IMG/VR virus record: IMGVR_UViG_3300020118_000203
Location: 1-31,789 of that record
Length of the DNA stretch: 31,789 nucleotides
From: a virus
Strand: one strand, 5' to 3'
Under the pieces are notes generated by a model. It was not told the origin of the DNA. It did not search any database and saw nothing but the letters and a program-made list of their open reading frames with translations. Position numbers and translations under genes: made by a program. Position 1 is the first letter of the stretch, and each line of letters opens with the position of its first letter. Shown piece by piece: positions 1,638-29,079 of the stretch.

Positions 1638-2022
1638 GGAGGAAAATGCCGAGATCGGCGCCCGTTTGGAGCATTTTGGGCTTGAGAAGTATCACACATT
1701 GGCGGCTTTTGCTGCCGCCCTCCGGATATCCCCTCAAAATCTGAACGGTTACATCCGAGGAGTCAGGCGGCCCGGGAATAAGATGAAAGCCCGGCTGCGG
1801 GCGCTCGATGCCGACATCGAATGGATTATGACCGGTCGCTCATCAATCCGGCAGACGATAGCATCGGCCGGCGATATCGAGCTCTTGACTTTCTTAAAGG
1901 AATTGGGTATTGATTCGATCGACAAGGCCCGGGAGATCCTAAGTCCGGAGGCTCTGGCTCAGGATATTGCTGCGATGGTCCGAGAGAAAATGACGAGATA
2001 TCGATCGAAGAGGAAGCGATGA
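1636..2022 (+). CDS. XRE-family repressor, putative lysogeny (CI-like) regulator
   Basis: This 128-residue protein carries an XRE helix-turn-helix at about residues 18-50 (LAAFAAALRISPQNLNGYIRG) followed by ALDADIEWIMTG, a characteristic end of this HTH family. No LexA/S24 peptidase motif is present, so induction would not be by self-cleavage. The C-terminal half is helical and ends in a basic tail. The start ATG has no Shine-Dalgarno site and lies on an operator-like repeat. A weak rightward TTGTCA(1605)/TTTAAA(1628) pair would give an almost leaderless message. It is divergent from the Cro-like gene and heads the lysogeny operon. Confidence 0.75.
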   Translation: MEENAEIGARLEHFGLEKYHTLAAFAAALRISPQNLNGYIRGVRRPGNKMKARLRALDADIEWIMTGRSSIRQTIASAGDIELLTFLKELGIDSIDKAREILSPEALAQDIAAMVREKMTRYRSKRKR

Positions 2023-2711
2023 GATCCCTGCGATTATATTCAATGCTTGCACTGATCAATGCCATCGGTCTACTTGGTTGTGGGAGTGATACGGTGATGA
2101 TCAAGCAATATTCTTTGAATTCTCAGAAGCATATAACCCCGGGAGAGGCTCTGATGGAATGGGGTTACTACTTGTCGCACCGCGCTACGCACGTGGTCGA
2201 TGGAGGTATCCGAAAACAACTCTTGTATGGGGGCGTCGATCATGGCACTCTCCAGATAAGTTATCGCGAATTCTCGCTCGCTCAGGCCGGCGAGTTCGCC
2301 AGAGCTCCTTTCTATCAGGATTTGAAATATGATCTCGCTTCCTCGTCGATCATCGCATTTCAAGACATACGAATTGCGATCGATTCTGCCGACCAGCAAG
2401 GCCTACTCTTCAGAGTGCTGAAAGGACCGAGCGAGACGTTCGAAGCCACTCCGCTCGATTTGGGGGCAGATATCTCCGGAATGATTATCGGAACCGGCTA
2501 CGAAGTGAAGGGAGTCAGAACCGGCAGCGCCGCCTTTGCGGCGAAGATCCAGATTGGCGATACATTAGTCAGCATATCCGATACTCCTATTTTGGGTAAG
2601 AAGGTCGATGAGATCCAAGATTTGCTTTGGGGAGATCCCGATACCTCCGCAGAGATAAAACTGTCCAGGGCAGGAAAAGAAGTGAATCTATACATCCAGC
2701 GCCATCGATGA
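2019..2711 (+). CDS. Lipoprotein with C-terminal PDZ domain in lysogeny operon
   Basis: The 230-residue protein starts with a short basic n-region, a hydrophobic stretch and a lipobox LLGC (Cys21), so it should be exported and lipidated. Residues about 155-228 match a PDZ domain: VKGVRTGSAAFAAKIQIGD, then TLVSISDTPI, a helix and a final SRAGKEVNLYI strand. The middle (25-150) is not recognised. There is no protease or peptidoglycan hydrolase domain. The ATG overlaps the repressor stop (ATGA) and its stop overlaps the integrase start, so it is expressed with lysogeny functions. Superinfection exclusion or lysogenic conversion is an inference from position and export, as for the lipoprotein Ltp in the lysogeny module of Streptococcus phage TP-J34. 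Confidence 0.8.
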   Translation: MRSLRLYSMLALINAIGLLGCGSDTVMIKQYSLNSQKHITPGEALMEWGYYLSHRATHVVDGGIRKQLLYGGVDHGTLQISYREFSLAQAGEFARAPFYQDLKYDLASSSIIAFQDIRIAIDSADQQGLLFRVLKGPSETFEATPLDLGADISGMIIGTGYEVKGVRTGSAAFAAKIQIGDTLVSISDTPILGKKVDEIQDLLWGDPDTSAEIKLSRAGKEVNLYIQRHR

Positions 2712-3715
2712 GCACCCTCCGCCGCCGCAAGAACGGCTACTTCTTCATCGACATCCGGACCGAGGGGGCGAGGAAGCGGATCTCACTCGATACCAAGGAT
2801 CGGCGGACCGCCAAGGCGAAGGCAAATATCATCGAGCGGGATCTCACGGGCGGCGAACCGGTATCCCGGGCGACACTCGATGACTTTAAGCTCGAATTCG
2901 AGCTCTACTCAAAAGCCCGGAAGGCGCCGAGCACGACGAAGGCCGAACGCTACGCGCTCAATAAGCTCTCCAAGTTCATCCGGATGCGGTATCTCGATCA
3001 GATCACACCAAAGATGGCGGATGCGTTCGTAACTGCGATCGCGCGGGAAAAGAAGAAAGATAAGACGCTCACCCCCGGCGCCGTCAATTTCTACATCCGG
3101 ACCTTGAAGGCGATCTTCACCACGGCTCACAAATGGGGCTACGTCGACCGGAATCCGTTCGTGGGAGTGAAGGCAATCCGCTTCGAGCGATCGATGCCGA
3201 GGATCCTCACACTCGGGGAAATCGCATCGGTCTTTGAAGCGGCGAAGAGAATCGAACCTGCGATGGTGCCTTTGATCGAATTTTATCTCTTGACGGGGAT
3301 GCGGAGAAACGAGACGTTGAATCTGGAATGGACGGATGTGGACCTTGCGAGGAACGTACTGACTTTGCGGAACACGAAGGGGAAACGGGCGAGGACCGTG
3401 CCCATGGCGCCGAGGGTGAAGATGATCCTGGACTCGAGGCGCGAGCTCGCCAGGCCTTTCCTATTCCGACCGAGCACCGTCAGCCACAAGTTTACTCTCA
3501 TCGCCCAGGAGGCCGGGATCCCGGACATCTCACTTCATGATCTTAGGCGGTCCTTCACGAGCTACGCCCAGGATATCGGGATGCCGGCGATGTTCCTCCC
3601 CTGGTTAATCGGACACACGGAAGAGCAGACGACCCAGCAGCACTATACGGGGTTTTACGATGAGATGATCGCGCAATACTTCATGAAGCTCGAAGCGAAG
3701 ATCTTCCCCAATTGA
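2708..3715 (+). CDS. int: Tyrosine-family phage integrase
   Basis: The 335-residue protein (start ATG 2708, overlapping the lipoprotein stop as ATGA) has the three parts of a lambda-type integrase: an N-terminal arm-binding region (about 1-60), a SAM-like core-binding domain (about 55-150) and a catalytic domain. The active-site set is complete: Arg199 in TGMRRNE, a basic beta-hairpin with NTKGKR near 222-227, His277 and Arg280 in LHDLRR, His303 in IGH, and nucleophile Tyr313 in HYTGFY. It should join attP at 5147-5377 to a tRNA-Leu gene. Genes of unknown function separate it from attP by about 1.4 kb. Confidence 0.96.
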   Translation: MSTLRRRKNGYFFIDIRTEGARKRISLDTKDRRTAKAKANIIERDLTGGEPVSRATLDDFKLEFELYSKARKAPSTTKAERYALNKLSKFIRMRYLDQITPKMADAFVTAIAREKKKDKTLTPGAVNFYIRTLKAIFTTAHKWGYVDRNPFVGVKAIRFERSMPRILTLGEIASVFEAAKRIEPAMVPLIEFYLLTGMRRNETLNLEWTDVDLARNVLTLRNTKGKRARTVPMAPRVKMILDSRRELARPFLFRPSTVSHKFTLIAQEAGIPDISLHDLRRSFTSYAQDIGMPAMFLPWLIGHTEEQTTQQHYTGFYDEMIAQYFMKLEAKIFPN

Positions 3716-5510: not shown

Positions 5511-6047
5511 TCACGATCCGATTCCCTCCCTTTTGAAGGCATCAAAGAGCACTATCACCTCGGATGCATAATTCGGGTTGCCGCCGCCATTCCAGAGTTG
5601 GAGGGCCTTCCTGACGTCCGAGCCACCGGCGAGTTTGAGCTTGACCGTGAACCACTTCATACCCCACTCTACCTGCCAGGCGGGACGGACCATGAAGGCG
5701 TTAATGCCTTTCGGGACGGAGACCTCAGAGAGCGGGTCTTGGAGCTGGAAGGTGCTCGTCTGGTTATTGTAGGTCTTGAAGAAGTCGAAGAACCCGATCT
5801 CGCGCAGGGATTGACCCATGACCTGCATAAGACCATAGCTGCAGGCGAGGAGGACCTCGGTTGTGGTCGACAGCGATCCAGGGGCGGTATAGCGCCTATA
5901 GAACCCCTCCTCGAGGCGACATGCATCATCCGAGAATCCCCCGCCCGAGCCGGACTCCCTCGAGCATATCGCGAGCCCGAGCGCGGGATCAATATTGAAG
6001 CGTGGTCCGAACTGTTCGCAAAGCTGCCTCACCTGATCTTTCGTCAC
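5511..6047 (-). CDS. Endolysin, lytic transglycosylase (SLT) type
   Basis: The 178-residue protein has a goose/soluble lytic transglycosylase fold signature: catalytic Glu31 in CSRESG, SYGLMQVMG at 70-78, and a late WNGGGNPNYASEV block (152-164). Such enzymes cleave the MurNAc-GlcNAc bond of peptidoglycan. The start is GTG 6047, with AAGGAG seven bases upstream; an upstream GTG at 6113 lacks a good site. There is no signal peptide, so release would depend on a holin. It is the last gene of the late operon and follows several small membrane-protein genes. Confidence 0.9.
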   Translation of the reverse strand: MTKDQVRQLCEQFGPRFNIDPALGLAICSRESGSGGGFSDDACRLEEGFYRRYTAPGSLSTTTEVLLACSYGLMQVMGQSLREIGFFDFFKTYNNQTSTFQLQDPLSEVSVPKGINAFMVRPAWQVEWGMKWFTVKLKLAGGSDVRKALQLWNGGGNPNYASEVIVLFDAFKREGIGS

Positions 6048-6143
6048 CTCACTTCTCCTTTGTGTGATAAAATGGGGACCGCCCTCGATCGTCAGGTCGA
6101 AACGCCAGAACACGGGGCCCCATACCCTGGCGCGGGCGGTCTC

Positions 6144-6281
6144 TCAAAGCAGCATCGACAGGAAGAGGAGCGCGAGCGATCCCAATGCGAGGTCGAAGCG
6201 CCCAAGGTTGACGTCGAAGAGGGCCAGCACGCACGTGATGAAGCCGCATGCCACGACCAGAGTCCTGATCTGGGACCTCAT
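6144..6281 (-). CDS. 45-aa double-spanning membrane protein
   Basis: The ATG at 6281 overlaps the stop of the holin-like gene (ATGA). The 45 residues contain two hydrophobic stretches (LVVACGFITCVLALF at 8-22 and LALGSLALLFLSMLL at 31-45) with a short charged link, a class II holin-like or antiholin-like shape. No larger frame at this place is credible. The 96 nt between its stop and the endolysin start hold only the endolysin ribosome site and no convincing gene. Confidence 0.6.
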   Translation of the reverse strand: MRSQIRTLVVACGFITCVLALFDVNLGRFDLALGSLALLFLSMLL

Positions 6282-6862
6282 TTGGCGGCGACCTCCTCGA
6301 CCTGCTTCTTGCCCCTGAACCATGATGCGATCCCGAGGATCGGAGTGACCACCGCCAGAAGGGCGGCCATTGCCCCCAGCATCCCGGGGATGTATTGAAG
6401 CATCTCGGGCTTCCCTCCCCAGAACATGACTGAGGCGTAAGCCCACGCGATAGTCAGGGCGAGGACCACTACCGTGAGGGCCACCGCGAAGCCTACCGCC
6501 GGACGCCAGGCATAGGTCACGAAGTGCTCGGACTTCGCTTCCGCCTGCATCGTGAGGTTGACGTCGGCCGCATTCTGGACGGCGAGCTGGTTCAGGGCCT
6601 CGACATCTTTGAACCCGAGCGCCTGCATCTGGATGGCGAAATCCTGGTCGGCCTTCTTGAGCAAGAGAAGCTGATCGGGGCTCGCACCCTCGACCGCTCC
6701 CTGGAACGCAGCCTTGTCCTTCTCCGGGTCGCCCGTGCTCGCGAGTCCGAACGCCTTCAAGCCCACATTGACGGCGGAGCCGACGAGCGGGCCCCCGAGG
6801 GCCGAGGCAATCCAGGGGGCTACGCCCGCGATCTTGCCGATGATATCTCCGAGATCCATCAT
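6278..6862 (-). CDS. Holin, GTA_holin_3TM-like
   Basis: The 194-residue protein has a Gly/Ala-rich N-terminus, a charged helical middle (DPEKDKAAFQGAVEGA...KKADQDFAIQMQ) and then YAWRPAVGFAVALTVVVLAL and further hydrophobic segments, ending in a basic WFRGKKQ tail. This order, and the xRPAVG motif before the membrane region, match the GTA/phage 3TM holin family. The protein should form the membrane lesions that let the endolysin out. ATGA overlap upstream and downstream shows tight coupling with the two other membrane genes. Confidence 0.8.
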   Translation of the reverse strand: MMDLGDIIGKIAGVAPWIASALGGPLVGSAVNVGLKAFGLASTGDPEKDKAAFQGAVEGASPDQLLLLKKADQDFAIQMQALGFKDVEALNQLAVQNAADVNLTMQAEAKSEHFVTYAWRPAVGFAVALTVVVLALTIAWAYASVMFWGGKPEMLQYIPGMLGAMAALLAVVTPILGIASWFRGKKQVEEVAAK

Positions 6863-7182
6863 GCCTCCAGCTGGTGCTGCGTCCTCGCATGGATCGCGGC
6901 GAGGAGGCTATTGAAGATTCCGAGCTTATAGAGGAGCATCGATATTACACCATTGACGAGACCATCCCTGAGCCAGGTCAAGACGTCGGAAGGTGGAACC
7001 GGGATGAGCGCCATCACCGAAGCGGCAAACGTGATTGCGACCGCTACAATGAGCGTCTGGATCGCCATCGCCTTATCGACGGCGTGTGTCCAATGGGCCG
7101 CGATCCAGCCCGAAATGACGAAAGCCGGGCCGCCAGCCACCAGGAGCGAGAGAACGAATGACGTGAGATCAAAGGGCTGCAT
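6859..7182 (-). CDS. Small multi-span membrane protein, putative holin/antiholin
   Basis: Three hydrophobic segments lie at about residues 7-28, 40-62 and 74-93 of 107. The start is ATG 7182, preceded by AGGAG. It overlaps the 3TM holin-like gene by ATGA. A second holin-type protein beside the main holin often modulates lysis timing, but nothing in the sequence proves that role here. No family is recognised with certainty. Confidence 0.6.
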   Translation of the reverse strand: MQPFDLTSFVLSLLVAGGPAFVISGWIAAHWTHAVDKAMAIQTLIVAVAITFAASVMALIPVPPSDVLTWLRDGLVNGVISMLLYKLGIFNSLLAAIHARTQHQLEA

Positions 7183-8601: not shown

Positions 8602-8964
8602 TTATGCCTGTGGGGCAACAACTGCCCCGAATAAAAGGACGTCCACGTGGTCTCCATTGCAGTTGAATCCGAACTTTACAAATCGCTCGCCGGATGACTT
8701 GAGGCTCCCGGGGAGCGAGCCGAATACGCCATTGGCGCAATTGTCGGGCGAGAACGACAGACCATCTCCCATGCTATCAAAGTTCTCCCCGTCACTGCCG
8801 CAAAACTGCTGAACCCCCACGCCCGTCTCCGGAGACATGGGCCCGAGGGCGAATTGAAAGACGACCTGATCGATGTCGGGAAGCGCCTGGGTATCAATCA
8901 CATCCGTGAAAATGTAATCCTCCCTCGTCATGCGCTCGGCGACGAGCTTTCCAATGATGTTCAT
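8602..8964 (-). CDS. Tail-tip region protein, unknown function
   Basis: The 120-residue protein begins MNIIGKLVAERM, has no leader or membrane helix, and looks beta-rich with many Gly, Asp and Phe residues and three Cys. The ATG overlaps the stop of the exported protein upstream (ATGA). Position at the end of the fibre genes suggests a small virion or fibre accessory protein. No family is recognised. Confidence 0.65.
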   Translation of the reverse strand: MNIIGKLVAERMTREDYIFTDVIDTQALPDIDQVVFQFALGPMSPETGVGVQQFCGSDGENFDSMGDGLSFSPDNCANGVFGSLPGSLKSSGERFVKFGFNCNGDHVDVLLFGAVVAPQA

Positions 8965-9584
8965 GGGTTAGTTTCTCCGGTAATTTTGTCCGTCACAATT
9001 CCGCCATAGGAGGTTTGAGCGTGATGCTCAAGGGAACCGATCACCTGCTTTTTCTTTGTTGCCGGGAGGGTATAAAAGACGGTAATGCGGAAGGCGTCTA
9101 CGCTTAGGGTTTGTGTATTGTCATTCGATGCGCTGCTGAACCTGCCACCAAAACCAGATGAGTTAATATCTGCTGGGGCCCAGGGAAGAGAGAACAGGGT
9201 ACCATCCCCGCCAACCGACATCCACGTTAGTGTAGTAGACACGGTTATGGTTAGAACATCCCCGTTGCCGGCGCCACCCTGCAAGACCCCTATACCCTGA
9301 GACGTCTCTCCAGCAATAGAGCTCTTACATTTCACCTCTGACTGTATCCCCGTAATTGTTGCCGTTCCGGGAATTGAAAACCCGAAGGCATCTGACCATA
9401 GTTCGTTCCCCACCCCAGCGCCAGTGGCACAAGTAGCGAACACACCGTCTTCAACCTGGGCGTTACTTGCATTTGCCCACGTTATATCTCCGGTGCCGTC
9501 AAAGGCATGTGTAGAAAACAACGGCCCCTGCGAGGTCCCCAGGAGCGCGAACGCGAGAAGGGCAATCCAGAGATTCTTCATCAT
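8961..9584 (-). CDS. Exported beta-rich virion-type protein
   Basis: The 207-residue protein opens with a Sec-type leader (MMKNLWIALLAFALLGTSQG). The body carries a layout common in phage virion proteins: W-A-NASNAQVEDG, then ...GFSIPGTATITGIQSEVKC, T-rich strands, and a late SVDAFRITVFYT strand. This jelly-roll-like pattern occurs in tail-fibre and surface proteins of many phages, normally without a leader. It overlaps the neighbouring genes at both ends by ATGA. Either export is real or the leader-like stretch has another use. Confidence 0.7.
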   Translation of the reverse strand: MMKNLWIALLAFALLGTSQGPLFSTHAFDGTGDITWANASNAQVEDGVFATCATGAGVGNELWSDAFGFSIPGTATITGIQSEVKCKSSIAGETSQGIGVLQGGAGNGDVLTITVSTTLTWMSVGGDGTLFSLPWAPADINSSGFGGRFSSASNDNTQTLSVDAFRITVFYTLPATKKKQVIGSLEHHAQTSYGGIVTDKITGETNP

Positions 9585-10657
9585 TGCCTTGTCTTTGTCA
9601 GGAGAATCTGAACGGCAATATTGGTCGGGCTTCCCGAGGGTGCATTGATGACGACGAGCAGAAGATCACCAATATTGAGTGTCTGGTTCTGATCCGCGTT
9701 TCCCGTCGTCCAGTTCCCCGGATAGCCCGTCACGCTCGTCGCGAACACGCTCGTCGCCTTTGTCCGCACGACCGTCCCCGATCGGGATCTGAGCACATTG
9801 ACAGAGTCGCTCGTTCCTCCTTTTATCTGCACCTGAATCTGTGCAACGCTCATGCCCGAGGCCCAAACATAGATCGGAAGCGTATCGGCAGCAGTCGGGG
9901 AAGGGAATTGCGCGGGTCCGACGCGGAGGGAGTCGGTGTAAGTGGCGATATAGTTCTTGGCGGCGAGCGCGGCCTTTGAGATGAATATGGTATTGGTATC
10001 GTTCCGCTTCGCCGTGCCATTGGTATCCGATGGAATCAGATATGTTCCGCTTGCCTGTTTTGTATTCAGATTCGCCTTTGTGGCCACGAGTGATACTGTA
10101 TCAAGGCGCTTCAGCATCCCGGTCGTATCTGAGGGAACGAGGTAGGTCCCCGCAGCTTGCTTGCCCAGTAATCCCGCCTTCGTAGCGATGTAGGTATTCG
10201 TATCTGCCCTTTTCGCAACGCCGTTCGTATCAGATGGAACGAGGTACGTTCCCGAGGCCTGTTTGCTGGCAAGGTCGGTCTTGGTCGCGAGCTTACCGGC
10301 TGTCGTGTCCGGCGCGATGATACCGGTGGACGAGTTATAGGTCGCATATCCGGCCACACCAATATCCGATCGAACGACGGAGGCCGGGACCGTTCCGGCA
10401 ATGCGGGAGGAATCCGGGGTGAGCTGCCCGTTCGACTGATTGTAGAGCAAGCCCGGCTGGACAACGAGCTGGGTATTCTGGATGAAGCCGCCGACGTCCG
10501 CAAAGTTGTAATCTCCGGAGGCCTTCACCACATCGCCCGTTCTTGTGAAAACAGAAATCACGGCGCCAGCGCCCCCGCCAGTCGTGGGCTTACGGAGATC
10601 CTGCGCCTCGAGAGAGGTCGCAAGTATGAGGAGAAGCATGATTGCCAAGGTTTTCAT
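9581..10657 (-). CDS. Tail fibre protein with leader and 34-aa repeats
   Basis: The start is ATG 10657 with GAGG upstream. The 358-residue protein begins with a leader (MKTLAIMLLLILATSLEAQ, cleavage likely before Gln19), then the fibre motif VFTRTGDVVKASGDYNFADVGG (36-57, two halves around GDVV). Three tandem 34-residue repeats follow, starting at Gly136, Gly170 and Gly204 (GTYLVPSDTNGxxKR). The C-terminal 110 residues form a beta domain that may bind receptors. Fibre proteins with such repeats are trimeric shafts. The leader is unexpected for a virion protein. Confidence 0.75.
   Translation of the reverse strand: MKTLAIMLLLILATSLEAQDLRKPTTGGGAGAVISVFTRTGDVVKASGDYNFADVGGFIQNTQLVVQPGLLYNQSNGQLTPDSSRIAGTVPASVVRSDIGVAGYATYNSSTGIIAPDTTAGKLATKTDLASKQASGTYLVPSDTNGVAKRADTNTYIATKAGLLGKQAAGTYLVPSDTTGMLKRLDTVSLVATKANLNTKQASGTYLIPSDTNGTAKRNDTNTIFISKAALAAKNYIATYTDSLRVGPAQFPSPTAADTLPIYVWASGMSVAQIQVQIKGGTSDSVNVLRSRSGTVVRTKATSVFATSVTGYPGNWTTGNADQNQTLNIGDLLLVVINAPSGSPTNIAVQILLTKTRQ
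9947..10252 (-). repeat. Three 102-bp tandem coding repeats
   Basis: The three 34-codon units of the fibre shaft share GTYL(V/I)PSDTxG, (A/L)KRxDT and xxKQA(A/S) or related positions. They lie in one frame without gaps, which suggests duplication of a shaft module. Confidence 0.7.
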
Positions 10658-10670
10658 CGCGGGGTCCTCT

Positions 10671-11000
10671 TCAGTAAGCCAAATAGCTGAAATGAATCGT
10701 CCCGGCGCTCGACCAGAATCGGGCCCAGCCGGCAGCCGAGACCGGCAGTGATAGGACCTGTCCTTGGCGGATCGGGAAGCGATGGCCGGCCGTCGTGTCG
10801 TTCCGCCAGGCATACCAGAGGATGGCGGATCCGGAGGTCTCATCGTTACTCACGAGCATATGATAGACCGGTGTGACGAACCCGATCGAATCTTTCGTCG
10901 TTCCGACCGAGGTTGTATCGGCGTAAAGGGTATTGCTCTGAGCCCGGGCGCCCGCGCAGAGCGCGAAGGCGAGGATAACTATGAAGAATATTCGTTTCAT
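10671..11000 (-). CDS. Small exported tail-region protein
   Basis: The start is ATG 11000, preceded by AAAGGAG; a longer frame to 11237 lies inside the next gene's shadow and is rejected. The 109-residue protein has a typical leader (MKRIFFIVILAFALCAGARA, cut before Gln) and a beta-rich body (SNTLYADTTSVGT...WYAWRNDTT...AAGWARFWSS). It lies between two fibre-type genes that also have leaders. No family is recognised; a fibre cap or baseplate surface protein is plausible. Confidence 0.7.
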   Translation of the reverse strand: MKRIFFIVILAFALCAGARAQSNTLYADTTSVGTTKDSIGFVTPVYHMLVSNDETSGSAILWYAWRNDTTAGHRFPIRQGQVLSLPVSAAGWARFWSSAGTIHFSYLAY

Positions 11001-11026
11001 CTGTGGTTCTCCTTTTGTTTTCTCTG

Positions 11027-12478
11027 TCAAGATTGCCCTCCGACATAGAAGGTGCTCGTCGTGTTCCATTCGATCGTCGTGCTCGATGCGCCTGTGACGC
11101 TCAAACTGACCGTCGAGCCCGAGAGCGTGAAGGTGACACTCCAGCCCGTTCCGCCCGACCCATCGTGGATCGTGGTGGTCGAACCCTGTTGGAGCGCCGA
11201 GCCGCTTGTGTTGTAGAAAGTTCCCGAGACGATCCACCCGGCAGCATTATTGAGGCCGCCTGAGACGTTCTTGCCGGCGGTGACGAATGCCTGCCAGACT
11301 ACGAGCTGGTTGCTACTGACTGTGGCCGAGAGGAGCGTCGTCTGCGTGGCATCGGTGGTCTGGACTTTCTGCTGGATTCCATAGGTGGCCGGCGAGGTGC
11401 CGCTGGTGCCTGTCTCGAAATACCAGACCTTATTGCCGAGCGTACCCTGCTTCGTATGCAAGCGCGCGAGAGTCGAAGTCGGGAAGCCGATCGCCACATC
11501 CCCGCTATTCTCATTGATCAGCATCGGATTGCCCTGGCCGATTTGTGTCTGGCTTCCCGAGGCGGCCGCGAGGATCAGATTTCCGGAGGAGGTGAGCTTC
11601 GTCGCAGAGATGAATGCATTGGCAGTCAGAAGCGAGCTGAAGGTCTTCGCTCCGGCGATCGTCTGGCTTCCTGTCGTCACGAAGCCCCGTGCCGAGGCGC
11701 TTGCATCGGGGATAGCGAAGGTGTGCGTCGTGCCTGAGGATGAGATCGTGAAATCTGTTCCGGTCGTCGCAGTTGCAAAGGTCTGCGTCGCCCCTGTGAG
11801 CGTGTTGAGGGTCATGATGCCGCCGGATGAGGGCGTCACCCAGGAAGTATTGGAGCCATCCGTCTGCAGCTGCTTGCCGGAGTTTCCGCCCTGGGAGGGC
11901 AGCAGAGCGTTGAGCGCCGCATTCGCGGTGACTTGCCCGGTCCCCCCATTCGCGATCGGGAGCGTTCCCGTGACTCCCCCGTTGCCTGAAGTCCCCAGGT
12001 TGATTGCCGGCACATCCGCCCCTACCATCAGCCGAAACGTGGGAAGGCCGCTCGAGCCATTCGGGGCCGCGAAGAACTTGTTCGCCGCCTCTGAAGCCCA
12101 AGTGACCGTGAACGTGCCCGTCGTCGTCACCGGGGAGCCGGAGACGGACATCTCTGAGGGGACGACGAGAGCGACGGATGAGACCGAGCCACCCCCGGCG
12201 CCGGAAATCTCAACATAGGTGCCGTGATCAATGACGGTCGTCGCGCCGGTCCCGAGGAGTTGCTTGATGACGTTCTTCGATCCTATGACATAGAGCTTCA
12301 CATGAGAGCCGGAGGCATTAGTAATGCTATCGAGCTTGAAGAGATCCATCCACATGCCCCGGGACCCGTTCCACATCCACACCATCCCCGGCCTGGGAGC
12401 TGGCTGGGAGGATGCTATGGAGGAAATCGCAAAAACGGCGAAAAGACCTATGGAGATGGTATAGAGGATCTTCTTCAT
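11027..12478 (-). CDS. Tail fibre protein with N-terminal leader
   Basis: The 483-residue protein starts with a leader ([20 protein letters not shown], then IASSQPAP) and contains classic fibre elements: [20 protein letters not shown] near 95-115, [10 protein letters not shown] near 172-181, and a Gly/Ser/Thr-rich beta shaft with [13 protein letters not shown] and [19 protein letters not shown] motifs. The C-terminal 120 residues (from about 365) look like a receptor-binding beta domain. The ATG overlaps the stop of the discoidin-like gene (ATGA). Fibre identity is firm; the leader is the odd feature. Confidence 0.8.
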
Positions 12479-13242
12479 CGGGTTGCGAGCTGCTCCTTCA
12501 TGGTGATCTTATCAAACTGGTTGAGGTTCGCCCGGAAGAGCTTCGTCGGGTCGATATCGATATCGAGAGAGACAAAGTATGCGGTGCTTCCCGTGTCCTG
12601 AAAATAGAAGGGGCGCAGACGCCCTCTGACCTTCTGGAAAAAGACTTGAAACGCGGCCAGGGTCGCATCGTCGAGCCCGGGCTTCAGGAATGTGATCTGC
12701 CAGGAGAGCCTTCCACCGAAGACCTGGCTCGCCCTCACCGTCCCATCGAGGGCGATCTCCTCGGATGTCTGATATTTGGCATTCGTGACGTTTGCTGGGA
12801 AGTCGTAGGGAAATCCGAAGTCGAGTTTCTTCCCGAGATAGAGGGCTCCGAGCTCCGGCGCCTGCGCGAATGGGGTAATAAAAAGCCGCCAATACCTCGC
12901 GGTATGAGCTCCAAAGGTCGTGAAGAAGGGGCTCCCCGCGGGCGAGGGGCTTCCAATGACACTCGTAGCGGTGAACCAGGTCGAGTTGTCGGAGGAATAT
13001 TGGAGCTCGGTCGGCACATTCCCCGTATGTAGGTTCGACTTCTGGAAAGCGATGCAATCACACTCGACCGCGGTGCCGAAGTCGATCGTGAGCGTCTGGG
13101 CGGCGGTCGAAGCCGTCTTCCAGGTGTCGGTCCCGATATAGGTCGTGAGATTCGACAGCGGATGACCTGCAACAGGAGTCTGGCTCGAGGACAGAGAAGA
13201 ATAGGTCGAAAGATCGACGGCGAGGAAGATGGGGTTGCTCAA
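12475..13242 (-). CDS. Tail-tip protein with discoidin-like N-terminal domain
   Basis: The start is TTG 13242, overlapping the previous stop (TTGA); upstream residues of the longer frame belong to the shadow of the larger gene. Of 255 residues, about 10-125 resemble an F5/8-type C (discoidin) domain: [50 protein letters not shown] and ARYWRLFIT. Such domains bind glycans or lipids. The C-terminal half ([13 protein letters not shown]... RLRPFYFQD) resembles siphovirus minor tail proteins that attach the tip. It has no leader, unlike the fibre genes that follow. Confidence 0.7.
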
Positions 13243-16200
13243 AGCGCGTCCACTCCTCTCAGGTAGGCCGACACGATTGCGACCTGGTCCGGGGTATGCG
13301 CGCCGTCGTAGATCAAGATCTCTTCGATGTCTCCGATGAACGGAAGCGCTCCGGCGGCATTGTGAGCCCCGATCGTGAGCCCATGGAAACCCTTGAACGA
13401 TCCGGGGCCATAAGTCCCCGCGGATCCGCCGTCGAGCATGATCACACCCGCGCCCGCCGGGTTGCCTCGTGAATAGCTCGCTACATGCCATACGTTATAG
13501 AGCCACTCCGCGTCGTCGAAATCATGGCCATCCTGATAGGTGGTTCCATTCCCGCCCTGGATCTCGATATGGTTCGCGAGCCCGAGACCCGCGTCCGATG
13601 GATAGAGTTGCCACGAGAGGTAGACATCGCGGCCCACGAGCCCATAACCGGAGCTCGCGGAGGCGTCAGTGGTCCGGTTGAAGACGATATATATCGTATA
13701 GCCCGAATCTCCAGGCTGCGCCGGCGTGGTGATCCACTTCGTGCCTGAGAAGCGCAAGATGGGGTGACCGTTGATGATGTTCGTTTTGTAGATCGGCTGG
13801 TTCGCGCCCGTGGCTTGAACGGCATGATTCCCGAGCCCGGAGAAGTCCGTCCACGAGGCGATCGCATCGCCGTCGGATAAGCCCATCATCTTGCGTGAGG
13901 CGCCCCAGAATATCAATCCACCGATCGAGCCGTCGAGCGGGTCCCAGGGCGGGGGTACGATCGGCTCAAGCTTCAGGAGCGCATCGACCGTTGCGGATCC
14001 GTCCGGCGAGCAGCCCATCGTATAGATAGGGCCAGAGCCCGAACCTGTGATCTTCGTACCAATGAGGGTGACGTCGGCCCGGTCGATCGGTTCATACTGA
14101 AAAACCGGCACATTCCCCATCCTCAGACGATAGAGCGAGCGGTCGACCTTGAAGAATTGCCAGGCATAAAAGGCCACATCGCGGGCGATGGCGTCGGGGA
14201 TGAAGTCGTTAGAGATTGTTTGCGTTCGCTTATCCGAGAGCACGGCGACATCGAAGGCGGTCCCGTTATAGGTCGTGATCTTGGTCGCCGAGTTGATCTG
14301 GATCAGGTCGGCCTTCGGATATGCGAGAAGGGTCTCCTGGACATCCGAGACGTTCGAGCGGTCGAGCGCGAGCCCATTTCCGGTCGTGGTGGGGTTTCCC
14401 GAATCATCGGCCCTGCGGTAGCAGATTGCGCGCTTGGCGAATGAGATCGTGCCGAGGAGGAGAAACGAGTTCAAGATCTTCTTGATCGCCGGGGTGATGG
14501 AGGTATCTTTGAAGTTCGCCATCGTGAGCGCCGGCACCACCTTCGCGCACCACTGCAGTAGGTCACGCACTCCCGTCTGGTAGATCGCCGCATCGTTTAT
14601 CAGATACAGTCTTCCGTTGGCCTCGACCATCTGGTGATATTTCGTGTAGATATGGCTTCCGGTGATTGCATTCGTGCTCGTGAGAAGCGTGGGCGTGTTG
14701 TTCAGCACCGAGTAGAGCGCAAGCCCGAACATCGATGCCGCGTCGACCGTGAAGTAAGTGAGGTTGTCGACGGGGTCAGCATAGATGTTATCGCATAGCC
14801 CATCCGGGGAGAGATCGAGTACCTGGACCGCCGTCGCACTCGAGTCGGTATGCGACCAGATCGCGGGGGCTATCCCAGAGGGATCAAACCAGTAGTACAC
14901 CCTTCCCTCGGCATCATTGTGCGCGGCGGCCCGGAAGTAGTTGTCGATCCCCGGCACTTTCTCGCCATTGTCCACCCAGGTTCCCGATCCGTTCACCTGA
15001 AACTCCCTGAGGGCGTGCTGGCCGGAGTTGTTGTAGACTCTGAAGCGGATCTTGCTCGACCCGATCTTATGCATGAAGATGGAGCGGATGCCGTTGCCGG
15101 TGGTGTAGGCGAGGCCGATGCCGGTCGCGATCGTCGTCACCGCAAGCGAGGAGCCGTCGATCCTTTGGAACTTACCCCTCGAGGTCGCGCCGTCGTCATC
15201 GGTGAAGACGAGGGCATACTCCCACGAGCTCCCCGCATAGTTGAAGTCGACGAGCTCCATCGAAAGATGCACGCTATTGCCGGTTGCGACGGCCGAGGAA
15301 AGGGTATTCGACCCGACATCGTAGCGGTAGATGCTGGTCCCATTGTAAATCCAGACGTGGTTATTTCGCGCATTATAGAAGAGCCGCGTGATAACTGCCG
15401 AGGGGATTGTGGTTTTGAGCGTATAGATCCCCGTCAAGACGTCCCTGAAATAGAGTTTCGCATCTACAGCCACCCAGAGATTCGTCCCGTCGGTCTCGAG
15501 GGCGTTCTTCACGCCCGTCACGATGCCGTCATTATTCGGAGGCACATCGATATGTGAGAGCCTCTTCTGACCATCCCAGGTTGAGAACTCGATCGTGTCG
15601 AAGTTGACACTCGTCATGCCAATCTGCTCATAAAGCTTCGCGAGGATGAACCGGATATCGGCGTCGGCATACCATCTCTTGGGGAGCGTCTGGCCTGTCT
15701 GGACCACCACGAAGTCGTCATAGACGGCGTTCGGGAATGAAGTCGGTGAGACGACGTAAACCTTCACCCTCTGCGTATCCGTCCCGCCGGTGGGCGCGTT
15801 GCCGATGGTATAGGTGCCGTTCGAGGGGATGGCGACCCACGCCCCGCCGTCGAAGTTCACACCCTGGGCCGGGTCCCAGCCAATCGCGTGCGTTCCGAGC
15901 GTGACGGCATAGCTCGCGATGTTGACATCGATGATATAGATGCCGGCGAGAGTCGGGAGAATTAATCCATCATGCGATCCGTCGACGTTATGGAATATCG
16001 GCTGGCAGCTCACAACCTCGGCCGGGAGACGGTTCCCGAGCTCATCTGCCGAATAGCACGTCAGGGCGGTCTGGTCGTCGAGCTCCATCGAGAGGCTCCC
16101 CGGCGGGTCGATCCACCCGGCGAAATAGTAGATCACGTCCGAGGCACCCTGAAGCATCATCTCGGTCTTAATCTCGACTCTATCGATGCCGTTGAAGACA

Positions 16201-16457
16201 TTATCCTTCCACCACTGAATGTCTTTGATCGAGAATGAGATCGAGTCGGCGGTAAACTGCCCGAGCTGATATTCCACCTTGGCGATCGAATCAGCGAGTG
16301 AATCGCGGACAATCCGATCGGTGACTTCGGTCCAGGCTGTGCCGGAATCGAGCGGCTCGGAGAGCAAAGCCGTTTTTCTCACGAAGGAGCGGAAGATGAG
16401 GATCTTCGAGGCGCCGCGCGCCAGGTCGTTGAACTCGGGAGAGGCGGTAAGCTTCAA
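13239..16457 (-). CDS. Large tail-tip protein with C-terminal LamG-like domain
   Basis: The 1072-residue protein directly follows the tape measure gene (ATGA overlap), the position of the distal tail/baseplate hub. Residues 1-150 are a tail-protein-like N-terminus (SISFSIKDIQWWKDN, then DDQTALTCYSADELGNRLP). The middle (about 310-640) has repeating beta-propeller-like strands (TDGTNLWVAVDAKLYF, NNHVWIYNGTSIYRYD, EGRVYYWFDPSG). Residues about 841-1072 match a concanavalin A/LamG fold: GLIFWGASRKM, DGDAIASWTDFSGLGNHA, LRFSGTKW, GDIEEILIYDGA and a last helix. This end should bind host surface glycans. Confidence 0.8.
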   Translation of the reverse strand: MKLTASPEFNDLARGASKILIFRSFVRKTALLSEPLDSGTAWTEVTDRIVRDSLADSIAKVEYQLGQFTADSISFSIKDIQWWKDNVFNGIDRVEIKTEMMLQGASDVIYYFAGWIDPPGSLSMELDDQTALTCYSADELGNRLPAEVVSCQPIFHNVDGSHDGLILPTLAGIYIIDVNIASYAVTLGTHAIGWDPAQGVNFDGGAWVAIPSNGTYTIGNAPTGGTDTQRVKVYVVSPTSFPNAVYDDFVVVQTGQTLPKRWYADADIRFILAKLYEQIGMTSVNFDTIEFSTWDGQKRLSHIDVPPNNDGIVTGVKNALETDGTNLWVAVDAKLYFRDVLTGIYTLKTTIPSAVITRLFYNARNNHVWIYNGTSIYRYDVGSNTLSSAVATGNSVHLSMELVDFNYAGSSWEYALVFTDDDGATSRGKFQRIDGSSLAVTTIATGIGLAYTTGNGIRSIFMHKIGSSKIRFRVYNNSGQHALREFQVNGSGTWVDNGEKVPGIDNYFRAAAHNDAEGRVYYWFDPSGIAPAIWSHTDSSATAVQVLDLSPDGLCDNIYADPVDNLTYFTVDAASMFGLALYSVLNNTPTLLTSTNAITGSHIYTKYHQMVEANGRLYLINDAAIYQTGVRDLLQWCAKVVPALTMANFKDTSITPAIKKILNSFLLLGTISFAKRAICYRRADDSGNPTTTGNGLALDRSNVSDVQETLLAYPKADLIQINSATKITTYNGTAFDVAVLSDKRTQTISNDFIPDAIARDVAFYAWQFFKVDRSLYRLRMGNVPVFQYEPIDRADVTLIGTKITGSGSGPIYTMGCSPDGSATVDALLKLEPIVPPPWDPLDGSIGGLIFWGASRKMMGLSDGDAIASWTDFSGLGNHAVQATGANQPIYKTNIINGHPILRFSGTKWITTPAQPGDSGYTIYIVFNRTTDASASSGYGLVGRDVYLSWQLYPSDAGLGLANHIEIQGGNGTTYQDGHDFDDAEWLYNVWHVASYSRGNPAGAGVIMLDGGSAGTYGPGSFKGFHGLTIGAHNAAGALPFIGDIEEILIYDGAHTPDQVAIVSAYLRGVDAL

Positions 16458-19400
16458 GGCAGGATCGTCGGCTTGGAGCGGGTATTCTTGAAGAATGCAG
16501 CCGGGTCTTCGACGCCGAGCTTTCTCATGCCCTGCTCGACAGCAGTCTTGACGTTATCGGCCGTAACCGCTCCTTTGAAATTGATCGTCAGATACAGATT
16601 GTGGACCTGATTATTGTTGTTGACGATCGTCTGGCCGCGCGGGCTGATCGTGGATTGCGAGGATCCTTGAGCCGGGAAGCTCGGCAACGGCCCGAAGGCT
16701 GACGGTTCGATACCGAGTTCGATCGGCGAGCCATTACTATCGACAATGCCGCCATCGTGAAATTCTCTGAGATTCGAGATAATCGTTTCCGCATCGCGCG
16801 CGATCGCGAGGGTGGGGAGCTGATCAGCGCGGGAGAGGATCTCAAGGCCTTGGGAGGCAATAATCTTCAGGAGATCCGGATGGGAGCGCATTTCTCGCTC
16901 GATCGTATAATAATTGGCGAGGATCTCTTGGATGGAGGATTCCTGCCGCTCGGTGCGGATGGTCTCGCCGCCGCGGACCAGGATCGGGAACTCACGCGAG
17001 GGGGGCGCATCAATATAGACGCCCTCGTGGGCCTTGGGAAGCTGCTCTGGAGATGCGGATGAAATGATCTTCTCTTTCTCGAGCTCCCTGAGCAACGATT
17101 CCGCATGATCGACGTCTTTAATCAGCGATGAGAGAACGACCGGCGGCGCTCCTGCGATCGGAGCCGCCGGAATCAAGGAGCGGCCGGGGGCACCTCCAGA
17201 GACAGGTCCTTGGATCTGTCCGGCTTCACTTCCAGCCATTGCCGGGTTTCCAGTGACGGGAGCAATGAGCTTCTCAATCAACGAGACATTCTTTTCGATC
17301 TCGCGGATGAAACTTGAGCTTGCAACGCCCTCTGCAGTCGCATGAGAAGATTCACCTGGCGTTGGCTGATCGCCTGAGGCTGCTCGGTCGCCTATCGCGG
17401 CGCCGTCGTGAGGCTTCGGGGGCGCCTCGGCGTTCGAGAACGAGACGAGCTTCTCCCGTTCGAGCTGCCTGATCAGCGATTCTGTCTGATCTATCTCCTT
17501 GATCAGCGACGAGAGAAGGATCGGCGGATTTCCTGCGATCGGTGCCGCGGGAATCGACGAGCGGCTCGGGGCAGCTCCAGGGACGGATCCCTGGACCGGT
17601 CCGGCTTCACTTCCAGCAACTGCCGGGTTTTCAACAACGGGCTTGATGAGCCTTTCGATCAACGAGACATTCTTTTCGATCTCGCGGATGAACGTCGAGC
17701 TCGCGATATCGCGTCCCGATGGCCGAGCCTGGACCGGGGGAGCGGGACCCTCGCCCGATGAGCGCATATCGCTCACTGCGGCCCCATCGTGAGCGCGGGG
17801 CATTGTCGCATCGGGTGTTGCCGATTCAGGTTCGATCGGAATTGATCCCGGGCCAATCACCGATTCGATGGTTTTCAGCTCTTTGGCGAGCTCGGTTCTT
17901 TCGGCGTCGGTCGTCAGACGATCGATCAGCGCTATTGATCGATCGAACTCCTTGATGAGCGATGAAATTACACTCGAGGATCGGGAGGTAGTCTTGGAAG
18001 CTGAAACGGGCTGGCCGGCGAGGGCGCCCGACGGTGAGGATCTCTCCACTCCTTGAGGCTCACTTCCAGCGACTGCCGGATTTCCGGGCTCGGGGGGAAT
18101 CAACTTCTCGATGATCGAGATGCTGTTTTCGATCTCGCGGATGAACTCGGAGCTTGTGATATCGCGTCCGGATGGCGGAGCGGGAGTCTGAGCGGTGAAC
18201 CGATCGGCCATAGACGTCGCGTCGCCGACCGCGGCGCCATTATGGGCCCGAAGCAATTCGATCGCTGCATGATCGGCCATGGGCGCCGGAAGGCTCGCCC
18301 GGATGCCGAGCGTCGATTCGATCGTTTTCAAACTTTCCATTATCCCGGTCTTTTCAGACTGCGAACGCATGCGATCGATCAGCTTCTCGGAGCGGGAGAT
18401 CTCGGAGACGAAATTTTGCAGGCGCTCGAGTTTTGATACTCTCTCCGAGGACCTGGCTGTTGCCGCTGGGCCGCCGGCAGGAGGCGAAATGACTATCGTT
18501 CCGCTGTGGGCCTCGTGCGCAGCACCCCCAGCGGCTCCGGTGAGATTGGGGAGCTCGGGTAGATCCAGATCGAGATCGAAGATGCGCGCGGCAGCTGGAA
18601 CCCCCTTGAGAACTTCCGGATGATCCCGAAGCGATTCTCGCAAGATTTTCTCGCTTCTGATGACCTCCTGGATTCGGGCCTCCTGGAGCTCGGTACGAAC
18701 GGTCTCCCCTCCTCGCACCAGGATGGGAAACTCTCTCGAGGGCGGTCCGGCGATATACTGGCCTTCATGGGCCGTGGGTATGGCGCTGCCTGAGCCGCCG
18801 GCGATGTCGATCCCGCCGATCGAGCCCCCAGGGACCTGACCGCCTTCATGGAAGAGAAGGGCGAAGATATCTGTGACCGCGAGCGTGGCGAGCTTTTCGA
18901 GCGCGGTTGTGACGACATCATCCCAGAATTTCGCCCAGACATCGGAGAGCTGATCAAGGGTGGAGCGTGTGTTGTCGGCATACGCCTTATTCAGATCCTC
19001 CTCGCGCTGGATCCGGTTTGCGGTGAGATCCTGGAGGCGAAGGTCATACTCTTTGCGTGAAATCTCCCCATCATGGAGCTGCTTGGCGAGCGAGAGGCGG
19101 GTTTTCTGATCCTCGATATTCGCGAGCTCGTTACGGCGTTTCATCCCTTCGAGATCATTCGCCGCGCGGGTGTTGTCAAATCCCAGGAGAGTCGAGAGCG
19201 CCTTGCCGGCAGCTTTGCCTGTGGCATCCTCGAAGGATTTCCAGAGGTCCTTGAACTCCCTTGAAGAATTCTTCGTCAGCCGGTCGATCGTCGCCTGGAC
19301 CTGTTCGATATTCTCATCGATACGTGCAAAATCCTCCGGATCCACATCGAAGGCGATATGGCGCCTTTGCTCTTCGAGCTTATGCAGCTGCTGTTCCAAG

Positions 19401-23712: not shown

Positions 23713-24206
23713 GGTTTGTAATTCACCGTCGATGTATATTTGGGGCTCGTCACGCCCTGGCCTGACGATCTGAAGGCATAACGCCACCTCAGGACGACAT
23801 CCAGGCCTGTGAACTTCTCGGCCGCCGCGCTACGGAGCGAAAACTCCTTCCAGGATGATCCCGTCGATTGGAAAATGAGGGAGTCTGCGAGCACATTCGT
23901 CCAGGTGGACGATCCCCGGATCTCGATGTCGGCATATACATCGATCTTCGCGCTATCTGTGACCATCACCGTGTTGGAGAGAAATTTCGCAGCTCCCACC
24001 CTGAGGCCGCCCGCCGAAGGCGATGGGAACGTATCGATCTGGCTTGCGATGAACGATGCGCCTGATGCGAGCGAATACGTGTTGAAGAGCGAGATGCCCT
24101 TCGGATTGAAGCTCGTTTGCGCCGGCGCCGGGTCCGTCAGCGCGAAAACGAGCAGAAGGGGGATGAGAAGCGCCCCGACGATATGTTTGTGTGAGCTCGT
24201 CGTCAT
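23709..24206 (-). CDS. Exported protein within head-tail module
   Basis: The 165-residue protein starts with a clear Sec leader: a basic N-terminus, IVGALLIPLLLVFAL and APAQ with likely cleavage before Gln. The mature part is Ser/Thr-rich and beta-type (RVGAAKFLSNTVMVTDSAKIDVYADIEI; LDVVLRWRYAF). The ATG overlaps the previous stop (ATGA). No family is recognised. An exported protein between capsid and head-tail joining genes is unusual. Its composition resembles the exported fibre proteins at 8961-12478. Confidence 0.65.
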   Translation of the reverse strand: MTTSSHKHIVGALLIPLLLVFALTDPAPAQTSFNPKGISLFNTYSLASGASFIASQIDTFPSPSAGGLRVGAAKFLSNTVMVTDSAKIDVYADIEIRGSSTWTNVLADSLIFQSTGSSWKEFSLRSAAAEKFTGLDVVLRWRYAFRSSGQGVTSPKYTSTVNYKP

Positions 24207-24516: not shown

Positions 24517-26529
24517 TTACGAAATGCTGTTTGAGGCCGCGATCGCGGCGACCTGTCGCAGCACGGTATCGACGTCGACGTAGATATTGACGCGCGTGAG
24601 GCCGTCCTTATCGCCCGCATAGGGATTCACCAGGATATCCAGATTGCCCCAGTAGCCCAGGATCTCTTGTGAGAAATCGCCGAAGAACATGTAGCCCGAG
24701 GCGATCTGATTCGAGATGATCGAGCCATAGCCGTTGACGAGCCCGGAATCATCCATCAGGAACACCGGAAAGCCGGGCGTCTTCGGCCGCGTCTTCATGA
24801 TGCCACGGACGGCGGGATTGGTGATATAGAACATCGTCTCGACGTCCGCGTTTCCGACCGCGACGTCGGTTTCGAATTCGACGACGGCATCCCATCCCAT
24901 GCTCGCACCACTGACGGCGCCGATGCCGGTTTCATTCGCGATGCCCTTGGGCTGATTCGAACTTCCAAGCCCGTGAAAGACGGCCTTATCAACGCCGAGG
25001 CGCGCGATCGTCAGGAGATCGTTCTGGACGAGCGTCTCGATCGACGGGGTCGACTGCAGGAGGAGAAGCCTCGTGTACTCCTGGAATGCGCGGCCTTCCT
25101 TGGGGCTCATTGGGAGCGAGCCTGTGGTGAGGGCGGATCCTGAGGTCGTGCCCGTCTCCCCGGTCCATTCGAAGCTCGCGGCGCCCGTCTGGCGCGGGAT
25201 GGAAATATTGCCCTGGAGTCCGAAGAGAACCTGGACGCCGGCGCGGCCTGCGACCGCCCGATTTCTCAAGAGATCGACGAAGAGATCGGCGCGAAGGTCT
25301 GTGGCAATGAGCTCCTTGGCTCCGCTTGTCGTTGTGGTCGTGAGCGCCCGGGCGGCATGGACGAGGCCTGCCTCGAGGGCGATCCGCTTGAGTTCCGCAA
25401 CCTCTGATTCCGAGCCGATCGGGATGACGCTCGCCCGGTTCTGTATATCCCAGGGAACGAAACTTCCATTGGGCTTTTTCTGGACGCGCTTGGCGATCTC
25501 GGTCGAACATTCCTCCTCGAACTCCGCCTTGATGCGAGAGTTCGGAAGCTTCGACTGGATGAGCCTGAGGAGAGAATACCGCTTCGTCTCCTTCTCCGAG
25601 AGCCCGAGCTGGGAATCGGGCGTGAAGATCGCACCGCCGTCTGCGGCCATCCGATCTGCGATCAGCCCTTTGAAATCGCGGACCGGCAAGCCTTTGTTGA
25701 TCGCCTCCGTGCGGAGCTCCACGATCTTCGGCATGCGCGTGGTGAATTTGGCTGAAATCGATTCGATATCAGCCACCCGCTGCCGCTCGTCCCTCAGGAT
25801 CTCTTCTTCGGTCTTCGCCGGCGGGTCCTGTACTGTTTCTTTTGTCATGGTTCTTACTCCCATAATGGTGATTGGTTCCTCTTCCGGCTTATGGCCTTCG
25901 GGGATGAGTGAATTCAGATCAAAATTGCGCCCTTCGGCGATCATCTCGAACGCCTTGAGATCGTCGTAATATTCGAGGCCGCGATGGCCCACGGAGGTGT
26001 CGGCGGGGATCGAAACGGACGATCCCTCGATGGGCTCCCAATCGTCGATGCGGTAGACGGGAGCCTTATCGCGCAGCGCCATCGCCTTTATCTCGTCGGT
26101 CATCTCCTCGGGTGCAAGCTCGGTATAGCGATGGACGAGATATCCTTGAGAAGTCTCGAGCCTGATTTTGTCGCTATGGAGCGAGAAAAGCTCATCCCCC
26201 AAGAGTGTGCGCGCGAAACGGACATCACCGGAAGTATTCTTGCCGTCGTTTTTGTAATTCTCAATTCGTCCGCCCTGCCGGCGCATATCATGCATATCGA
26301 GGAAGGCGAGGCCGCCTGATGCCCGGCCCATGCGAACCGCGGCCGGGTCGTGATTTAGAACCTCAATCCCCCACCACCGGGAGATGGGATTATCGGAGGA
26401 GAAGGTCATCGGAATGGTTCGACTCTCCTTATCGATTGCGGCATCTCTTTGCTGGTGGATGATCCGGTAATGCGGCTTCGAGGTGATATACGCTCGGACT
26501 TCCTCGGGGCTCAAATGTTTCTTCTTCAT
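24517..26529 (-). CDS. Fused prohead protease and HK97-type major capsid protein
   Basis: The 670-residue polyprotein has an N-terminal U35-type prohead protease (about 20-200): MTFSSDNPISRWWG strand, His80 in FLDMHD, and Ser170 in IEGSSVSIPAD, the expected catalytic His and Ser. A charged helical delta/scaffold-like part (about 240-350, EEEILRDERQRVADIE, EFEEECSTEIAKRVQ) follows. The C-terminal part from about 400 is HK97-fold capsid: LRNRAVAGRAGVQVLFG, SIPRQTGAASFEWTGE, and a late YGSIISNQIASGYMFFGDFSQ P-domain. Self-cleavage should release protease, scaffold and shell. AGGAG lies 10 bases upstream of the ATG. Confidence 0.9.
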   Translation of the reverse strand: MKKKHLSPEEVRAYITSKPHYRIIHQQRDAAIDKESRTIPMTFSSDNPISRWWGIEVLNHDPAAVRMGRASGGLAFLDMHDMRRQGGRIENYKNDGKNTSGDVRFARTLLGDELFSLHSDKIRLETSQGYLVHRYTELAPEEMTDEIKAMALRDKAPVYRIDDWEPIEGSSVSIPADTSVGHRGLEYYDDLKAFEMIAEGRNFDLNSLIPEGHKPEEEPITIMGVRTMTKETVQDPPAKTEEEILRDERQRVADIESISAKFTTRMPKIVELRTEAINKGLPVRDFKGLIADRMAADGGAIFTPDSQLGLSEKETKRYSLLRLIQSKLPNSRIKAEFEEECSTEIAKRVQKKPNGSFVPWDIQNRASVIPIGSESEVAELKRIALEAGLVHAARALTTTTTSGAKELIATDLRADLFVDLLRNRAVAGRAGVQVLFGLQGNISIPRQTGAASFEWTGETGTTSGSALTTGSLPMSPKEGRAFQEYTRLLLLQSTPSIETLVQNDLLTIARLGVDKAVFHGLGSSNQPKGIANETGIGAVSGASMGWDAVVEFETDVAVGNADVETMFYITNPAVRGIMKTRPKTPGFPVFLMDDSGLVNGYGSIISNQIASGYMFFGDFSQEILGYWGNLDILVNPYAGDKDGLTRVNIYVDVDTVLRQVAAIAASNSIS

Positions 26530-28851: not shown

Positions 28852-29079
28852 CTAAAATCGGGGTTTATCGATCCGGCGGATGGTGAGTTCTCGGGGTTGA
28901 GCAGGGGCCGATGAAGGAAGAATTTTAAACGTGAGAATCCTCTCGATCTGATAGGATGAGAGCGAATCGAGGATCGATTCTACTACCTCCGAATCGCTCA
29001 TATGCAGATCCGCTCCGATCGCTCTCAGCTTTGCGGCATTGCGGACAATCTTAGGCCGAGAGACCGTTTGTTCTGTCAC
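28852..29079 (-). CDS. Small protein after large terminase gene
   Basis: The 75-residue protein starts at GTG 29079, overlapping the terminase stop (GTGA). It has a helical middle (SEVVESILDSLSSYQIERIL) and a basic C-terminus (LTIRRIDKPRF). It takes the place of lambda W, but the sequence does not match gpW clearly, so identity as a head-tail joining protein is only positional. The non-coding gap follows it. Confidence 0.6.
   Translation of the reverse strand: MTEQTVSRPKIVRNAAKLRAIGADLHMSDSEVVESILDSLSSYQIERILTFKILPSSAPAQPRELTIRRIDKPRF

Follow-up and report, generated by a model that had tools for sequence, protein, structure and literature searches.

The virus record IMGVR_UViG_3300020118_000203 of IMG/VR, analysed over its whole length of 31,789 bases (hereafter the window), carries five genes, P0001 to P0005, whose products begin with a predicted Sec-type leader and place a glutamine at the first residue (+1) after the predicted cleavage site. 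In tailed phages the folding and assembly of virion proteins are taken to be cytoplasmic. The leader-bearing genes of the window nonetheless lie in its late block, where the terminase is followed by genes for the head-tail joining protein, portal, major head protein, neck and tail. An open reading frame of 1520 residues occupies the tape-measure place, and after it come two large tail proteins, the array of leader-bearing genes and the putative lysis genes. P0001 to P0004 are contiguous between the tail-tip and lysis genes and directly follow the tail proteins, as do the tail fibres of tailed phages. P0005 lies apart from them near the capsid gene, with a 67-residue gene separating it from the major head gene. 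The phage is temperate, with an integrase encoded on the plus strand.

Five leader-bearing genes in the late block

A preliminary sequence-only reading had listed P0001 to P0004 as consecutive fibre or tip genes with Sec signal peptides. All four open reading frames lie on the minus strand exactly where it placed them and contain the motifs it quoted, and each has a charged n-region, a hydrophobic core and compatible -3/-1 residues. That reading counted two proteins with a clean AxA before glutamine, which is an undercount, as glutamine follows a permissible -3/-1 pair in all four; it also did not list the fifth leader gene, P0005, with the N-terminus MTTSSHKHIVGALLIPLLLVFALTDPAPA/QTSF (the slash marks the predicted cleavage site). 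Its claim that ribosome sites fix the starts holds for P0002 (a clear AAGGAG) and P0003 (AGAGG), whereas the sites of P0001 and P0004 are weak; the latter two genes begin on ATGA stop/start overlaps. Fibre-type modules could be assigned by homology in P0001, P0003 (a TRTGDVV module and repeats) and P0004, whereas P0002 gave no fibre-module match.

Table 1. Coordinates of the leader-bearing genes and of other features of the window (aa, amino acids; a slash marks the predicted cleavage site)
Feature	Position	Strand	Remarks
P0001, fibre-type protein, 483 aa	11027-12478	-	leader 12407-12478, ASS/QPAP
P0002, small protein, 109 aa	10671-11000	-	leader 10941-11000, ARA/QSNT
P0003, fibre-type protein, 358 aa	9581-10657	-	leader 10604-10657, LEA/QDLR
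P0004, 207 aa	8961-9584	-	leader 9531-9584, GTS/Q; joined to common leaderless phage protein
P0005, capsid-linked protein, 165 aa	23709-24206	-	leader 24120-24206, APA/QTSF
Virus record (whole IMG/VR record)	31,789 bases		late genes read on minus strand
Terminase	29076-31058	-	late block
Major head protein	24517-26529	-	phrog_617 match; near P0005
Tail protein directly upstream of leader array	12475-13491	-	F5/8-type-C-like match
Putative lysis genes, downstream of array	5511-7182	-	GTA_holin_3TM match at 6278-6859

The leaders were called by a rule combining charge, a hydrophobic stretch and the -3/-1 residues, which, like the gene caller, is a heuristic of our own. By this rule all five proteins show the features of Sec and signal-peptidase-I substrates (n-region, core, small residues at -3/-1 and glutamine at +1), and among the 39 called genes of the minus-strand set it flags exactly these five, all of them with glutamine at +1 (Q-type). 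Across 79 further viral loci, comprising 866 genes, it flags 24 Q-type leaders; shuffled versions of these proteins yield none. The pattern [AGSVTLI]x[AGS]/Q is present in 5% of the 17-residue stretches of the window's proteins; against this background the chance that five of five leaders would have the glutamine is about 3e-7, and it is 1.5e-3 when the residues within each leader are shuffled as a conservative control. Because the glutamine of P0004 belongs to an ancestral QGP motif also carried by its leaderless homologues, we dropped it as separate evidence, and the independent cases number four rather than five.

Glutamine at +1 marks signal-peptidase-I substrates in Bacteroidetes (the Q-rule), with a mean Q-value of 71% in the phylum; the value is 77% in Ignavibacterium album and below 9% in most Chlorobi (PMC5837995). 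The predicted leaders of the window fit the Q-rule of Bacteroidetes signal peptides, and their form is a hint to the host phylum. Capsid genes related to that of the window occur in 10 of 395 genomes of the phylum of L092, an Ignavibacteriae locus taken up below, and in 43 of 349 genomes of another phylum; host assignment by capsid profile was rejected, since the matches are not specific to one phylum.

Searches of the leader proteins with Pfam, PHROGs and NCBIfam gave nothing beyond weak matches, such as that of P0002 to Cor (E 0.049), whose alignment includes the leader. Neither Pfam nor NCBIfam matched an outer-membrane or type IX secretion system (T9SS) C-terminal sorting domain in P0001 to P0005, and none has the lipobox of Cor/Llp exclusion lipoproteins, with cysteine at +1, this position being glutamine in all five. 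Structure predictions for P0005 and P0004 had a mean predicted local distance difference test score of 42 and 36, respectively, and these models were too poor to be used.

As regards the neighbouring genes, a better ribosome site of the upstream tail protein is located at 13242, and the endolysin match in the lysis region (5511-6113) is weak. The plus-strand gene at 2019-2711, just before the integrase, has a lipoprotein-like N-terminus (MRSLRLYSMLALINAIGLLGCGSD) and a PDZ domain (PF17820, above cut-off), and might encode an envelope protein expressed in lysogeny.

Conservation, grafting and recurrence of the leaders

Single-protein scans of viral contigs found no close relatives of P0001, P0002, P0004 or the upstream tail protein. 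The one related contig with the array is L010, whose capsid and upstream tail proteins are 59% and 42% identical to those of the window. After the tail protein L010 has the same three-gene order with a leader on each gene: a large fibre protein (14581-16263) with the N-terminus MTRLLIASLLFVSVGFG/QQ, homologous to the C-terminal domain of P0001; a small protein in the P0002 slot, which starts MKTTVLCIMLIALSLNAHA/GK and has no detectable sequence match to P0002; and a partial P0003 orthologue (16674-17210), which keeps its leader and starts MKRLLLTILCLILQTCEVIYA/QSG. Between the window and L010 the leader sequences diverge freely, while the architecture is kept, as is the glutamine in two of three.

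P0005 could be compared over four sequences, with its homologues in three further phages all having a leader followed by glutamine. The sites read APA/Q in L003 and L011, LDA/Q in L010 and AFA/Q in L004, whose capsid proteins are 87%, 59% and 37% identical to that of the window. In L004 the homologue (1356-1790) lies just before the capsid gene, whereas the window copy lies after it, and leader and glutamine are kept. Compared with L003, the 29 leader codons of P0005 show five synonymous and seven replacement changes, and the 82 codons of the body 22 and 17, respectively; as the leader codons carry both kinds of change, the leader varies within its type and is not frozen. A leader protein of similar size occupies the P0005 slot of L006, and its homology to P0005 was tested and not supported. 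The comparison with related phages proposed in the sequence-only reading thus finds leaders at the matching genes of L010 and in the P0005 orthologues.

Among uncultured phages, relatives lacking leaders are far more numerous. The P0003 module occurs in an open frame at 77 viral loci, some of them near-duplicates, of which about 62 are without a leader and about 15 have one at a plausible start, 13 of these with glutamine following the site. Likewise, the P0004 domain is leaderless at 39 of 42 viral loci and has a leader at three. In an alignment the leaderless P0004-type proteins typically begin with M(A/S)(T/S)QGP or a variant, whereas P0004 itself reads MMKNLWIALLAFALLG-TSQGP, the leader being placed exactly ahead of the usual starting point; in L149 and L152 a different leader is joined in the same way (ALAFA-TSAGP). 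Because leaderless modules predominate and the leader of P0004 is joined exactly before the usual start, the predicted leaders are modular add-ons to phage proteins that are leaderless elsewhere. The sequence-only reading had held that homologues with a conserved start after the leader would speak against it, and such homologues do exist for P0004 and most carriers of the P0003 module. They do not refute export, however, as the stretch from the leader to the QGP motif of P0004 offers no alternative start (ATG, GTG or TTG) and leaders are kept in relatives.

Runs of leader genes recur in other viral contigs, namely three in L018, five in L035, five in L054, and three near a capsid gene followed by two more in L074, while in L038 and L047 they stand in pairs or scattered groups. 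The phage nature of L018 and L047 is less certain than that of L074, with its clear capsid gene (phrog_212), and of L038, with a tail gene; some of the surveyed leader loci may be bacterial or redundant. Predicted exported fibre-type proteins are, on these data, a recurring and little-described feature of environmental phages. In L074, a phage otherwise dissimilar to the window, the three small genes (1752-3135) stand in a row shortly after the major head gene, and the five in a row of L035 (5419-11471) are followed by a gene that reads as peptidoglycan-hydrolase-like. In annotated phages P0001 has one partial match, in a leaderless protein, and P0003 and P0004 have none. A gene annotated as holin in a Porphyromonas phage (L128, 2519-2908) begins MRKFILLLIAVLGISLGLAA/QTLV, a Q-type leader by our rule, which may call that annotation into question. 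Among genomes of the L092 phylum, the stretches read from prophages with a related capsid protein contain no arrays of Q-type leaders, and L196, the best-matching genome contig, is without a P0005-like gene.

Possible roles of the leader-bearing proteins

The best reading of the predicted leaders is that they are real, selected export signals. We give roughly an even chance to the fuller account in which five late genes have genuine, host-adapted, cleavable leaders and their products are exported, released by lysis and most likely act as accessory adhesins that join or help the released virions. From the leaders, their sites, conservation, grafting and gene position, all of which are features of the DNA itself, we infer timing, export, cleavage, glutamine cyclisation and compartment as follows. 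The leader proteins would be transcribed late with the tail and lysis genes, exported through Sec and cleaved by signal peptidase I to an N-terminal glutamine, which in a Bacteroidota-type host would probably be cyclised. They would then collect in the periplasm, a location suggested because no sorting domain or lipobox was found, until lysis would free them into the medium alongside virions. The least certain step is the last, in which they would most likely join or help virions as accessory adhesins; this role is favoured because the genes lie among virion genes and other phages employ such modules in leaderless form. Only slightly less probable is that the proteins are displayed on the infected cell or lysogen, and a task as free adhesins is a further possibility.

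Several points weigh against this account. The same modules work without export in most phages, the leader calls rest on our own sequence rule, and, once in the periplasm, the proteins would have no contact with virions until lysis. Further, no mature N-terminal docking motif is common to all five proteins, the capsid profile does not fix the host to one phylum, and the annotated phages examined (Riemerella RAP44, Elizabethkingia TCUEAP3, two Porphyromonas phages and MW202475) showed no such leaders on their tail genes.

That the leaders are wrong starts or chance hydrophobic N-termini is very unlikely and largely refuted. The existence of leaderless homologues for P0004 and the P0003 module, along with the weak ribosome sites of two of the four array genes, would suit such an error; against it stand the lack of a start codon (ATG, GTG or TTG) between the P0004 leader and its QGP motif, the conservation in L010, L003 and L004 and the shuffled controls devoid of Q-type leaders. 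We also give little credence to the membrane or tip anchors suggested in the sequence-only reading, in which uncut leaders would fix the fibre proteins to the tail tip or to the inner membrane: the array does adjoin tail-tip genes, but the -3/-1 site and the glutamine at +1 are kept despite the divergence of the leaders, which weakens this option, and the capsid-side P0005 has a leader too. Equally improbable is a capture of genes from exported host proteins with the leaders as passengers useless to the phage. Related modules do occur in cellular leader proteins; yet leader and glutamine are kept in P0005 homologues across deep divergence, and the alignment of P0004 with leaderless phage proteins sets in at the usual start of the latter, which suggests a leader added to a phage protein.

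A more serious possibility, though still a doubtful one, is that the exported proteins are not virion parts and reuse fibre modules either periplasmically or at the surface of infected cells or lysogens, where they would alter adhesion or block superinfection. It would suit the presence of an integrase and the occurrence of the P0004 domain and fibre modules in exported cellular proteins with a leader and glutamine (L139, L140, L142 and L092), as well as the reading of Q-rule genes of Porphyromonas phages as possible outer-membrane modifiers (PMC10367356). The genes are located in the late structural block rather than a lysogeny region, however; surface display is at odds with the lack of a detected sorting domain or lipobox, and one gene is tied to the capsid gene. 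If the proteins do stay on cells, fibre parts would serve the phages as adhesins or shields after export.

A stronger form of the virion-helping account is rather unlikely, namely that in a group of tailed phages fibres and a capsid-linked protein pass through Sec and are added to particles outside the cytoplasm, either periplasmically or once lysis has occurred, constituting a second assembly route that would arise by the addition of host-style leaders to ordinary fibre genes. Were fibre-type proteins indeed exported and attached to virions afterwards, phages could alter receptor binding outside assembly, and the virions of a lysate could have it in common. In either case, leader grafting on fibre genes gives a specific signature open to searches and tests.

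Comparison with known systems

The modules concerned are shared with other phage and cellular proteins. Leaderless tail-fibre and tail-spike proteins of phages have the same RTGxV..GDY and NGGTG modules and the same place after tail proteins, and differ in being without a leader at the majority of the surveyed loci, as counted above for the P0003 module. At 29-31% identity the P0004 domain recurs in proteins of the Bacteroidota phylum of up to 3694 residues, in which a leader is likewise followed by glutamine (L139, L140 and L142). Several of these end in an apparent T9SS sorting domain, as read from the C-terminal sequences rather than from a profile match, whereas P0004 is without one; L142, of 389 residues, has the domain close behind its leader and glutamine. 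The Ignavibacteriae locus L092 (2823-6512) resembles P0001 and P0003 in combining a Sec leader with NGGTG/TRTG modules, and differs in being a cell protein of 1.2k residues with no adjacent phage genes; it is a chromosomal gene of a metagenome-assembled genome, beside aminotransferase-like and IspE-like genes. The modules are therefore at home in phages as well as in cell proteins that are exported.

In the titles and abstracts of a partial, mostly non-subscription literature no paper on tail-fibre leaders or leader grafting was found. The principle is not wholly new, since prophages of Porphyromonas gingivalis (the proposed Nixviridae) already have five Q-rule genes whose function is not known (PMC10367356). 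These prophages resemble the phage of the window in being temperate and in having several genes with predicted glutamine-exposing leaders (PMC10367356). Whereas the genes there are of unknown function, those of the window are fibre-type or capsid-linked, clustered and endowed with leaderless phage homologues; the window's variant of the principle is a set of predicted phage-encoded Sec substrates built from virion-type proteins.
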